Part shown: positions 3,881 through 23,053 of the stretch, in pieces | Layout: every line of letters starts with the position of its first letter | How positions within the stretch are numbered: position 1 is the stretch's first letter | Source of the DNA: Deltaproteobacteria bacterium | GTDB lineage: Bacteria > Desulfobacterota > Desulfobacteria > Desulfobacterales > Desulfatirhabdiaceae | NCBI GenBank assembly: GCA_016219185.1 | Contig: JACRBZ010000022.1 | Coordinates: 1 to 64,000 of the forward strand | Length of the DNA: 64,000 nucleotides | Direction of reading: 5' to 3' | Position numbers and translations under genes: made by a program | Notes under the pieces: generated by a model | Databases searched by the model: none | Told to the model about the DNA's origin: nothing | Seen by the model: only the letters and a program-made list of their open reading frames with translations

Positions 3881-4064
3881 AAAACCCCCGCCACTATGCC
3901 GTTTTGTAAGGCCTTTGAGCCAAACGCGGAATTTGGGGAATCCCTGTGATTTTTTTAGGCTTTTCTGTACAAGCAGAACTTGCTCACCAAAATCAGTAAA
4001 GGCCCCTGAGTATTATATGTTGGGACAAAGATCATCTTCCAATAACGAACACGGCAGGGGTATT
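3881..4064 (-). ncRNA. ssrS: 6S RNA
   Basis: A regulatory RNA that binds sigma-70 RNA polymerase by mimicking an open promoter. Read leftward, CCCCTGCC at the 5' end pairs with GGCGGGGG at the 3' end to close an RNA of about 184 nt, the usual 6S size. The interior carries GGTGAGCA, a small hairpin, then GAAAAGCCTAAAA, matching the E. coli 6S segment GGTGAGCA...GAGAAGCCTTAAAA in order and spacing. The position just downstream of zapA is the classic ssrS location in proteobacteria. The exact ends are estimates from the closing stem. Confidence 0.82.
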
Positions 4065-5705: not shown

Positions 5706-5750
5706 AACAAAAAGAGCAGGCCATCTTCAAGATGGCCTGCTCTTTTTGTT
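5706..5750 (-). terminator. Strong intrinsic terminator of the atp operon
   Basis: A perfect 20-bp inverted repeat around a five-base loop (TTCAA) has the core AGAGCAGGCCATC/GATGGCCTGCTCT and A/T runs on both sides, so it could work in both directions. It lies about 25 bases after atpC. Confidence 0.92.
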
Positions 5751-19674: not shown

Positions 19675-19944
19675 GTTCCATGATGTAAACTGGTTGATTG
19701 TATTTGTCAACTGAATGCCCTATCACAGATAGACGGTAATAAGACGGAATGCTTTCATAGACGAAGTTCTTGCAGTACTCACGAAACCGCTGAACATTGT
19801 CGGAATCATCCATGAATATGGCCGGAGAGTCTTGAACCTGCAGACAAACTGCCTAATCATCACAATTAAGCTTGATAAAATATCAAATTGAATTATTGTT
19901 AAGGGTTTCGTGAAGCACCGAAAAAAAATTGAAAGGAAAGTTTG

Positions 19945-20433
19945 ATGTCTATCATTCGACAGCACACGATTGCGGGATTAACACCAGGCGCTACCTTTAC
20001 TGTTACCCGAACATTTTCAGAGTCGCAGGTCGAACAATTTGCCGATATGACCCGAGATTACAACCCCATTCATTTTGACCCGCGGTTTGTTGCAATAAAG
20101 GGATTAAAAGCCAGAATCTGCCACGGACTTCTGGTCGGCAGCATGGTCACGGAAGTTGGGGGACAAATTGGATGGCTGGCTTCCGGCATGAATTTCAGGT
20201 TCAAGCGCCCCGTCTATATGGGCGAAACCATCACCTGTACCCTAACGATCACGGAAATTGATGAAAAATGCCGCGCACGGGCAGACGCAGTTCTTGTCAA
20301 TCAGGATGGTGAGGTAGTCCTGACCGCTCAGTTGACCGGCCGCGTACCGGGAAAGGCCGAAATCCAGGTTCTGAAACAAATGGTTGAAGAAGGCGACCCC
20401 ACCAATGGGCTACGAAATGGAACTCAAGACTGA
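19945..20433 (+). CDS. MaoC-like (R)-specific enoyl-CoA hydratase
   Basis: Hot-dog-fold hydratase of 162 residues, expected to hydrate trans-2-enoyl-CoA or enoyl-ACP. The catalytic dyad motif is D38-Y-N-P-I-H43, and the hydratase loop continues with ARICHGLLVGSMV. The ATG at 19945 has GAAAGGAAAG ahead of it; the TTG one codon upstream is less likely. The next gene starts immediately after the TGA (TGAATG), so the two are translationally coupled. Confidence 0.88.
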   Translation: MSIIRQHTIAGLTPGATFTVTRTFSESQVEQFADMTRDYNPIHFDPRFVAIKGLKARICHGLLVGSMVTEVGGQIGWLASGMNFRFKRPVYMGETITCTLTITEIDEKCRARADAVLVNQDGEVVLTAQLTGRVPGKAEIQVLKQMVEEGDPTNGLRNGTQD

Positions 20434-21387
20434 ATGACAAATTTTCGTGACACGGCCAAATCCGGCATCATGTCCGGTATTGAAAAAGGCTGGAGCGGTT
20501 ATGTCTGGCTGCTCAAAATTCTGATCCCCATCTCGTTTCTCACGCTCCTTCTGGATTACAGCGGCCTGATTCAGCGGACGGATTTTATGCTTGCACCCGT
20601 CATGAAACTGATAAACATGCCGGCTGCTGCTGCGATTCCTCTGGTGGTTGGCATGTTAACGGGGATCTACGGGGGGATTGCCGCCATGATCGTACTGCCT
20701 TTTTCTGTAAACCAGATGACCCTGATCGCCATTTTTTTACTCATATCCCACAATCTGGTCCAGGAGGGAATGGTACAGGGCAGATCCGGATTAAGGCCAC
20801 TGAAGGCCACTGCAATCCGGCTTGCAGCCTCTATCGCCACCGTGATCGCAGTGGCCCAGTTCATGGACTTGCAGACCGGCGCATCCGCTACGGTTGCTTT
20901 TGGCCCGCAGATTCAGAAAACCCTATGGGAAGTCATCGAGAAATGGGGAATTTCCACTTTTTTTCTCTGCATCAAAATTTTTCTTATTGTAATGGCGCTG
21001 ATGATCGCCCTGTGTCTGATGAAGGCCTTTGATATCATTCCTTTTCTGGTAAAGGTATTAAAACCTTTCCTGAAAATCATGGGGCTGGATGAGCGGGTTG
21101 GGCTGCTGTGGCTGACGGCCGTGGTGTTTGGGATTGCCTACGGCGCTGCTGTCATCGTTGAAGAAGCCAAAGAAGGGAATTTCAGCGCTGAAGAGCTCGA
21201 GAGGCTTCACATCTCCATCGGCATCAACCATTCGATGGTCGAAGACCCGACACTTTTTGCGTCCCTTGGCCTCAGCGTATTCTGGCTCTGGATTCCCCGG
21301 GTAGTCACCGCAATTGTCGCGGTTTATCTTTTTGATATCTGGAAAAAATGGTCAAACAGGGGCAACCGGCCGGTTGCCCCTGTTTGA
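20434..21387 (+). CDS. Gate-domain (nucleoside-recognition) membrane protein
   Basis: An integral membrane protein of 317 residues with about eight hydrophobic helices. The repeated Gate-like segments resemble the nucleoside recognition domain of SpoIIIA/YjiH-type proteins and concentrative nucleoside transporters. The substrate is unknown, and coupling to a MaoC gene gives no obvious clue. The last twelve codons, including the stop, are a perfect 36-bp palindrome. Confidence 0.75.
   Translation: MTNFRDTAKSGIMSGIEKGWSGYVWLLKILIPISFLTLLLDYSGLIQRTDFMLAPVMKLINMPAAAAIPLVVGMLTGIYGGIAAMIVLPFSVNQMTLIAIFLLISHNLVQEGMVQGRSGLRPLKATAIRLAASIATVIAVAQFMDLQTGASATVAFGPQIQKTLWEVIEKWGISTFFLCIKIFLIVMALMIALCLMKAFDIIPFLVKVLKPFLKIMGLDERVGLLWLTAVVFGIAYGAAVIVEEAKEGNFSAEELERLHISIGINHSMVEDPTLFASLGLSVFWLWIPRVVTAIVAVYLFDIWKKWSNRGNRPVAPV
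21352..21387 (-). terminator. 36-bp perfect palindrome serving as a convergent terminator
   Basis: A perfect 36-bp palindrome centred between 21369 and 21370 (core ACCGGCCGGT) overlaps the 3' end and TGA of the Gate-domain gene. On the minus strand it is followed by CC, A and six T residues. It therefore looks like the intrinsic terminator of the facing acyl-CoA synthetase gene, embedded in the neighbour's coding sequence. On the plus strand there is no T-run. Confidence 0.8.
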
Positions 21388-21406
21388 GATCGAAAAAGAG
21401 AAATAC

Positions 21407-23053
21407 TTATTTATACTGAATCCTCAGATCTTTCTTGCTGATCTTTCCGACGCTGGTTTTGGCAATGGAGTCAACAAGAGCCACCTTGCTGGGAACGCCG
21501 TATTTGGGAATGGTTCCGTTATCCACAAACTTCATGTAGAAATCCTTCAGTTCGTCTTCAGTGACCTTTCCCTTGTATTCAGCTTTTAACACCACTAAAG
21601 CCATGGGCCTTTCTCCCCATTTTTCATCGGCAATGCCAATCACCGCAGCCTCACTGACCGCCGGATGCTGACTGATAATATCTTCCAGCTCGAGAGACGA
21701 AATCCACTCGCCACCGGTTTTAATCACATCCTTGACCCGATCTGTAATCTGCAGATATCCTTCGGTATCGATATTGCCGATGTCGCCGGTATGGAGCCAG
21801 CCGTTTTCCCAGAGCTGCTCGCTGCGTTCCGGGTCCTTCAGATACCCTTGCGTCAGCCATGGAGAACGCACCACGACTTCACCGGTGGCTTTCCCATCAT
21901 GGGAAACAGGTTTTCCTTGCGGGTCCACGATTTCAAGATTGACCATCGGAATTGGCATTCCGGTTTTGCACCGCATTTCAACCTGGCTATCAATATCCCA
22001 ATCCAGCATAAACGGCTTCATGTTGGCGGCAGTCAGGAGCGGACAGGTCTCGGACATGCCGTAAGCGGCCGTCAGGCTGATGCCCAGAGACAACGCTGCT
22101 TTGCAAAGTCCCTTGGGAAGGGCTGATCCGCCGATGATGACTTTCCATTTGGAAAGATCAAACTGCTTTACGGCCGGGCTGCTGACCAGCATGTGAATAA
22201 TGGTGGGAACACAGTGTGAAAAAGTGACTTTTTCCGTTGCAATCAGCTTGAGCAGCACAGCCGGTTCGTATTTGCCCGGATAGACCTGTTTGACTCCCAA
22301 AAGCGTGCACAGATAAGGAATGCCCCATGCGTGGACATGGAACATCGGAGTCATGGGCATATAGACATCGCCTGAATTCAGATTGAGCTGGGATTTATAA
22401 ATACACAGGCCACTCATGAGCCCGTAAGTGTGAAGAACAAGCTGGCGATGGCTGTAGTATACACCTTTTGGCATTCCCGTAGTGCCCGTGGTGTAAAATG
22501 TGGTGGCCATGGCGTCTTCGTCGAAATCCGGGAAATCATAATTGGCGCTGCACGCGGAAAGCAGGGCTTCATATTCTCCCGAAAGCTCAAGGGATGTTGG
22601 CGGCGCCTGATCCGCATCTGTCAGGAGGACAAATTTCTTGACGGTTTTAATTTGATCTTTGATGGTTTCCAGCATGGGAAGAAAATCGGAATTGACCAGA
22701 ATAATATCGTCTTCCGCATGATTGATGGTATATGCAAGCTGTTCCGGCGACAGCCGGATGTTAATGGTGTGGAGGACCGCCCCCATCATGGGAACAGCAA
22801 AGAAACATTCCAGATACCGGTGGCTGTCCCAATCCATGACCGCAACGGTATTTCCAGAAGCAACTCCCAATTTTTCCAGCATATTGGCCAGTTGCGACAC
22901 CCTGCTGTTCAGAGCTTCGTAATTATAGCGCATCTTGTCCCGATAGATAATTTCCTGCTTGGGCGCATACACCAGAGGCATGCGAAGGATGTTTTTGATC
23001 AGCAGGGGATAGGCATAGGCAGATGGAGTTCGTTCAATTTTTCGGATAGGCAT
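21407..23053 (-). CDS. Acyl-CoA synthetase (AMP-forming)
   Basis: Adenylates a fatty acid or similar carboxylate and transfers it to CoA. The 548 residues show the P-loop-like motif YTTGTTGMPKGVYYSHR, the AYGMSETCPLL motif, the hinge TGDIGNIDTEGYL, and the C-terminal catalytic lysine context KTSVGKISKKDLR. The length and motifs fit the medium/long-chain group. The ATG at 23053 is chosen for the AGGAGG six bases upstream. It follows the PLP decarboxylase gene on the same strand. Confidence 0.92.
   Translation of the reverse strand: MPIRKIERTPSAYAYPLLIKNILRMPLVYAPKQEIIYRDKMRYNYEALNSRVSQLANMLEKLGVASGNTVAVMDWDSHRYLECFFAVPMMGAVLHTINIRLSPEQLAYTINHAEDDIILVNSDFLPMLETIKDQIKTVKKFVLLTDADQAPPTSLELSGEYEALLSACSANYDFPDFDEDAMATTFYTTGTTGMPKGVYYSHRQLVLHTYGLMSGLCIYKSQLNLNSGDVYMPMTPMFHVHAWGIPYLCTLLGVKQVYPGKYEPAVLLKLIATEKVTFSHCVPTIIHMLVSSPAVKQFDLSKWKVIIGGSALPKGLCKAALSLGISLTAAYGMSETCPLLTAANMKPFMLDWDIDSQVEMRCKTGMPIPMVNLEIVDPQGKPVSHDGKATGEVVVRSPWLTQGYLKDPERSEQLWENGWLHTGDIGNIDTEGYLQITDRVKDVIKTGGEWISSLELEDIISQHPAVSEAAVIGIADEKWGERPMALVVLKAEYKGKVTEDELKDFYMKFVDNGTIPKYGVPSKVALVDSIAKTSVGKISKKDLRIQYK

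Follow-up and report, generated by a model that had tools for sequence, protein, structure and literature searches.

A classic case of a bidirectional terminator is that of tonB and P14. PMC1852404, PMC7566282 and PMC5381666 describe intrinsic (Rho-independent) terminators, bidirectional ones included, that serve convergent gene pairs, and PMC7154746 reviews convergent transcripts that overlap. In Zymomonas mobilis, 34% of the Term-seq ends at intrinsic terminators lay between convergent genes, compared with 7.5% of the other ends (PMC7566282, in part). In Bacillus cereus, intrinsic terminators evolve in a compensatory manner, and those common to convergent genes are more conserved than others (PMC5381666, in part).

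The locus described here lies in a stretch of bacterial DNA of 64,000 nt, which was analysed as a whole and is referred to as the window. The final codons of a gene for a Gate-domain protein form a perfect palindrome opposite the end of a gene for an acyl-CoA synthetase. Like the intrinsic terminators of convergent pairs, this palindrome offers a G+C-rich hairpin at a tail-to-tail junction, with a T-run behind it on one strand at least, and, like the terminators in the portion of PMC5381666 consulted, it may have had its pairing preserved by compensatory change, here mainly in a single congener (G006). It departs from them in that all 36 nt of the hairpin belong to the reading frame of the opposing gene, whose stop codon forms the exact end of the hairpin, in having a U-run on one strand only, and in its 18-bp perfect arms. 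As with the 3'-overlapping transcripts and excludons treated in part of PMC7154746, convergent genes are involved whose RNAs would share 3' sequence. Compared with excludons as that part presents them, a functioning terminator would here confine the overlap to itself, and there is no sign of regulated read-through.

The signal at this locus is not of a new kind: the arrangement is known, the locus shows it clearly and in an extreme form, and no new mechanism is opened by it. No paper on a hairpin lying wholly in the terminal codons of a facing gene was recognised in a limited, partial literature search, on which no claim of absence is based. The junction is of use because, within a few dozen nucleotides, natural DNA forms a protein-coding end on one strand and probably an RNA terminator on the other, and because in one congener the residues change while the pairing stays. 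It can illustrate how two constraints overlap and how terminators inside genes may be annotated.

The junction and its hairpin

The Gate-domain (PF07670) gene (20434..21387, + strand) encodes a protein of 317 amino acids and directly abuts the gene upstream of it, which encodes a protein with a MaoC-like dehydratase domain (19942..20433, + strand). The zero spacing suggests that the two are probably carried on one transcript. Facing them is the gene for an acyl-CoA synthetase (AMP-binding, PF00501/PF13193; 21407..23086, minus strand), which has an alternative ATG start at 23053. By the sequence and the ORF coordinates, the intergenic stretch between the two stop codons measures 19 nt (21388..21406).

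The Gate gene closes with twelve codons (S N R G N R P V A P V stop) that coincide with a perfect 36-bp palindrome (21352-21387), made up of two 18-nt arms (21352-21369 and 21370-21387) that are 100% complementary with a spacer of 0 nt. An earlier note on this DNA had described these codons, the TGA stop included, as fully palindromic, and the description is exact. Among the gapless palindromes listed for the window, it is the sole one with arms of at least 10 nt. As RNA, the 36 nt are predicted to fold into a 16-pair stem with a 4-nt loop at -29.9 kcal/mol, equally stable on both strands, against a mean of -11.1 kcal/mol for shuffled sequences (z -7.2). With nine G-C pairs, it is the stable, G+C-rich stem with a short loop that is looked for in a terminator. 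An Rfam search of the window found no family at the palindrome, its sole match being 6S RNA. That 6S RNA lies at 3881-4063 on the minus strand and reaches 83.5 bits, the gathering score being 46.4.

The two strands differ in what follows the hairpin. On the minus strand, a 3-nt spacer (CCA) is followed by a run of six T (21343..21348), which on the + strand are six A and serve as two Lys codons (AAA AAA) of the Gate gene. On the + strand, the ten bases that follow the palindrome, GATCGAAAAA, contain a single T. The T-run had been claimed for the opposite strand only, and this is borne out; a consensus terminator scan of the window likewise calls a site on the minus strand only. A bidirectional intrinsic terminator would have a U-tract on both strands, and here the + side simply continues with GATCGAAAAA. 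The hairpin had also been proposed as an opposing terminator, a term to be taken in the minus-strand direction only, since on the + strand no U-tract follows it. In the minus-strand direction, the palindrome begins 19 nt past the synthetase stop codon, shortly after it as is usual for a terminator. The U6 run does not abut the palindrome stem in the window, however, and the CCA between them is not ideal for this function.

The perfect palindrome, the predicted fold and the terminator scan together mark 21352..21387 as the hairpin of a probable minus-strand terminator. The best explanation, to which we assign a probability of about 75%, is that the acyl-CoA synthetase gene has its intrinsic terminator here, within the Gate frame. 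A polymerase exiting the synthetase gene would transcribe the hairpin 19 nt past the stop codon and then the U6 run. From this layout we infer termination, its direction and its efficiency, with release of the RNA inside the final codons of the opposing Gate gene. On the + strand, the same DNA is the C-terminal coding end of the Gate protein, and the hairpin there would presumably be melted by each terminating ribosome. For the MaoC–Gate mRNA, it may be at most a 3'-end protector or a weak barrier; a canonical terminator for that transcript is unsupported, because the + strand has no U-tract and the ribosome must open the stem. The earlier interpretation is partly supported: its main line, that the Gate frame contains a terminator for the gene opposite, is backed by position, by the T-run and by the pairing in G006, which appears to have been kept at the expense of the protein tail.

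Pairing and protein in close relatives

A match to the Gate protein is present in 24 of the 57 genomes searched, the window's own genome being counted in both numbers; in the family-level set, six of eight genomes matched, again with its own included. Full-length close orthologues, with 86-90% identity, are found in three congeners (G006, G001 and G005). The synthetase gene faces the Gate gene in all four genomes that have a close orthologue, the window's among them, and no palindrome was found there that codes for protein without a facing gene, a situation that the earlier note had held to speak against a terminator. In G006 and G001, the hairpin occupies the same codons as in the window and lies opposite the same gene. 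Three further records (L026-L028) are the same contig regions as those of G006, G001 and G005 and were not counted twice, and another (L029, 91% identity over residues 1-228) stops short of the C-terminus and was left out.

In two further congeners, G002 and G003, the arrangement differs. The more distant Gate gene of G002 (63%) is on another contig than the synthetase gene of that genome and has no palindromic tail. The synthetase orthologues of G002 and G003 (83-84%) have no adjacent Gate gene, and G003 lacks any Gate match. The 300 nt after the G003 synthetase gene contain no hairpin with at least seven perfect pairs, and the 300 nt after that of G002 no such hairpin either, apart from an unrelated one of nine pairs without a T-run. 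G004 is uninformative, since its synthetase orthologue is cut off by the contig after residue 337 and it has no Gate match.

The last 36 nt of the Gate gene were compared as exact 36-mers among four sequences only, those of the window, G006, G001 and G005. Relative to the window, G006 has seven changes in these 36 nt. Its pairs are Watson-Crick in 17 of 18 cases and U-G in the remaining one, so that all 18 are standard. Three of them are altered on both sides, and none is when the partners are slid by 1-3 columns. When seven changes are placed at random (200,000 trials), in a test that ignores codon constraint and relatedness, at least 17 Watson-Crick pairs are left in 0.04% of trials and 18 standard pairs in 0.23%. 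The residue changes of G006 amount to 4 of 11 in the tail, compared with 29 of 306 in the body of the protein. Since four of the eleven tail residues are replaced while the pairs stay, the comparison indicates that it is pairing, rather than protein, that is kept in this congener.

The other two relatives add little to this. G001 differs from the window at two positions and has 16 Watson-Crick pairs and one G-U pair out of 18; its single mismatch adjoins the centre of the palindrome, in the folded loop. G005 differs at eight positions and has 13 of 18 standard pairs, its frame being kept and its hairpin decayed. As many standard pairs survive random placement in 57% of trials for G001 and 72% for G005, which is no support, and when the partners are dealt among the four sequences, 27 of 500 shuffles equal the observed covariation. 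As far as these sequences indicate, the covariation rests mainly on one congener, G006. Nor is the hairpin indispensable, because G005 keeps the gene pair with 13 of 18 standard pairs.

The six A that make up the minus-strand T-run are present in all four close sequences. Their conservation is weak evidence, because the run doubles as two Lys codons: of 11 lysines conserved in the four Gate genes, seven have the codon AAA throughout. In G006 and G001, extra pairs beyond a 2-nt bulge (GGTT with AACC or GG with CC) lengthen the stem, so that on the minus strand a single base separates it from the U6 run. The window has no such extension.

A strand preference was sought in the wobble pairs. One-sided changes give a plus-strand G-U pair in five cases (one in G006, one in G001 and three in G005), and G005 also has three plus-strand C-A or A-C mismatches, each of which would form a G-U pair in the minus-strand RNA. 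With five of one type and three of the other, there is no clear bias, and the wobble pairs are uninformative on strand preference.

The folds of the 36 nt bear on a different use of the hairpin, namely that it is shared by both convergent mRNAs and mainly ends or protects their 3' ends, with no need for a U-tract on the + strand. The polymerase on the + strand would then stop further downstream, for instance through Rho, and exonucleases would trim the RNA back to the hairpin. RNA 3' ends trimmed back as far as a hairpin are described in the literature. Such a use is favoured by the stem of the window being equal on both strands and by those of G001 (-29.9 on the + strand vs -25.6 kcal/mol on the minus) and G006 (-26.3 vs -24.8 kcal/mol) being more stable on the + strand, and some trimming at terminators is suggested in part of PMC7566282. 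The lack of a + strand U-tract tells against it, as does the stop codon inside the hairpin, where a terminating ribosome covers it. We consider a shared 3' end a real possibility, at somewhat less than even odds; it is compatible with a minus-strand terminator, and the two are not mutually exclusive.

Selection is not the only process that could keep the arms of a palindrome matched. By template switching at a quasi-palindrome during replication, one arm could be copied onto the other, in which case mutation would account for both the perfection and the paired changes. Template switching can create and maintain hairpins, and those in the portion of PMC8794818 consulted resemble the present one in their perfect arms and in multi-base paired changes, while the present one differs from them in lying at a protein-coding end and in being represented by four sequences. 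The 18-bp perfect arms, longer than a terminator is expected to need, are in keeping with such an origin. In G005, however, two mismatches stand among the three doubly changed pairs (C opposite T at positions 12/25 and C opposite A at 6/31), where the left base is that of the window and the right base that of G006. This fits stepwise change, although the tree is poorly supported: the nodes of the tree of close genomes that bear on whether the hairpin or the frame came first have 24-70% support. Template switching would explain the pairing, and neither the position nor the T-run. As the main source of the palindrome it is rather unlikely, and it may also have acted together with terminator function.

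In G005, a repeat-like stretch of ATCAGT-type units starts directly after the Gate stop codon (L005). It folds strongly and has no T-run directly after it. With up to three mismatches allowed, a 21-mer of this repeat (G005:C121:19300-19320) is found at six places in G005 and at none in the genome of the window (G000), G001 or G006. Repeat insertion and hairpin decay go together in this congener.

The distant Gate orthologues have C-terminal tails that cannot be aligned with that of the window. Because these tails are unrelated and of varying length, the tail of the Gate protein looks free to vary. With the synthetase terminator as the preferred reading, a poorly conserved and presumably dispensable tail would tolerate being written by a hairpin. 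A bolder version of this is a strand-asymmetric, translation-sensitive junction: the hairpin would always end the synthetase RNA, ribosomes finishing the Gate protein would melt the + strand stem, antisense read-through into the synthetase gene would occur only when Gate is translated, and RNA structure would write and rewrite the Gate tail. We regard it as a long shot.

Palindromes and terminators elsewhere in the genome

How unusual the junction is was assessed in an 864-kb sample of the genome, consisting of the window and 40 other stretches (13.5% of 6.38 Mb, from long contigs and thus non-random), in which genes were predicted by a simple hexamer scorer. The sample contains 53 hairpins with at least 10 perfect pairs, including six with at least 16. 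Of the 53, 26 overlap a predicted gene, and only that at 21352-21387 is within 100 nt of the 3' end of the gene. A U-tract terminator was called in 15 of 64 convergent pairs by a scan that uses a simple rule and misses some, one pair with a 2955-nt gap having been left out. The genes themselves overlap in nine of the 64 pairs by the calls of the hexamer scorer, some perhaps wrongly. In three of the 64, at least 10 nt of a predicted terminator fall within the opposing frame; the overlap is longest, at 36 nt, for the Gate and synthetase genes, and measures 15 and 13 nt in the other two. The placement of a terminator in the opposing frame recurs in the genome, and the Gate/synthetase pair is the strongest case in the sample.

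The genome also bears on whether the palindrome acts as DNA, as an operator, a recombination site or a member of a dispersed palindromic repeat. It is gapless and perfect, as such elements may be, and another palindrome is indeed dispersed over 15 places in this genome. The 22-bp core of the present one, however, occurs at a single place in its own genome, even with up to three mismatches allowed, and a dispersed (REP-like) repeat was rejected on this ground. The tail-to-tail site, the lack of an exact match to this core in viral contigs and the change of arm sequence in G006 while the pairing stays also argue against a DNA-level element, which we consider highly improbable. Finally, that protein coding alone happens to be palindromic by chance is scarcely credible, the preservation of the frame in G005 with a poor hairpin being outweighed by the z of -7.2 against shuffles and by pairing that survives residue replacement in G006. 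Separately, a viral origin was rejected after no exact match to the 22-bp core was found in viral contigs, among which records near the window's own genome may be absent.

The dispersed palindrome is 33 bp long, AGACCGACTCGGTTTTNAAAACCGAGTCGGTCT, and its 15 places in the genome of the window (up to three mismatches) include seven exact ones, for example G000:C94:18706-18738. A reversed control pattern gives none. Two of the places are in the 864-kb sample, where they lie between predicted genes.

The window itself contains a longer hairpin at 5706-5750, whose arms match perfectly over 22 bp around a 1-nt centre and which is located between two minus-strand genes. The ends of its arms are A-rich and T-rich, and it resembles an ordinary strong terminator.
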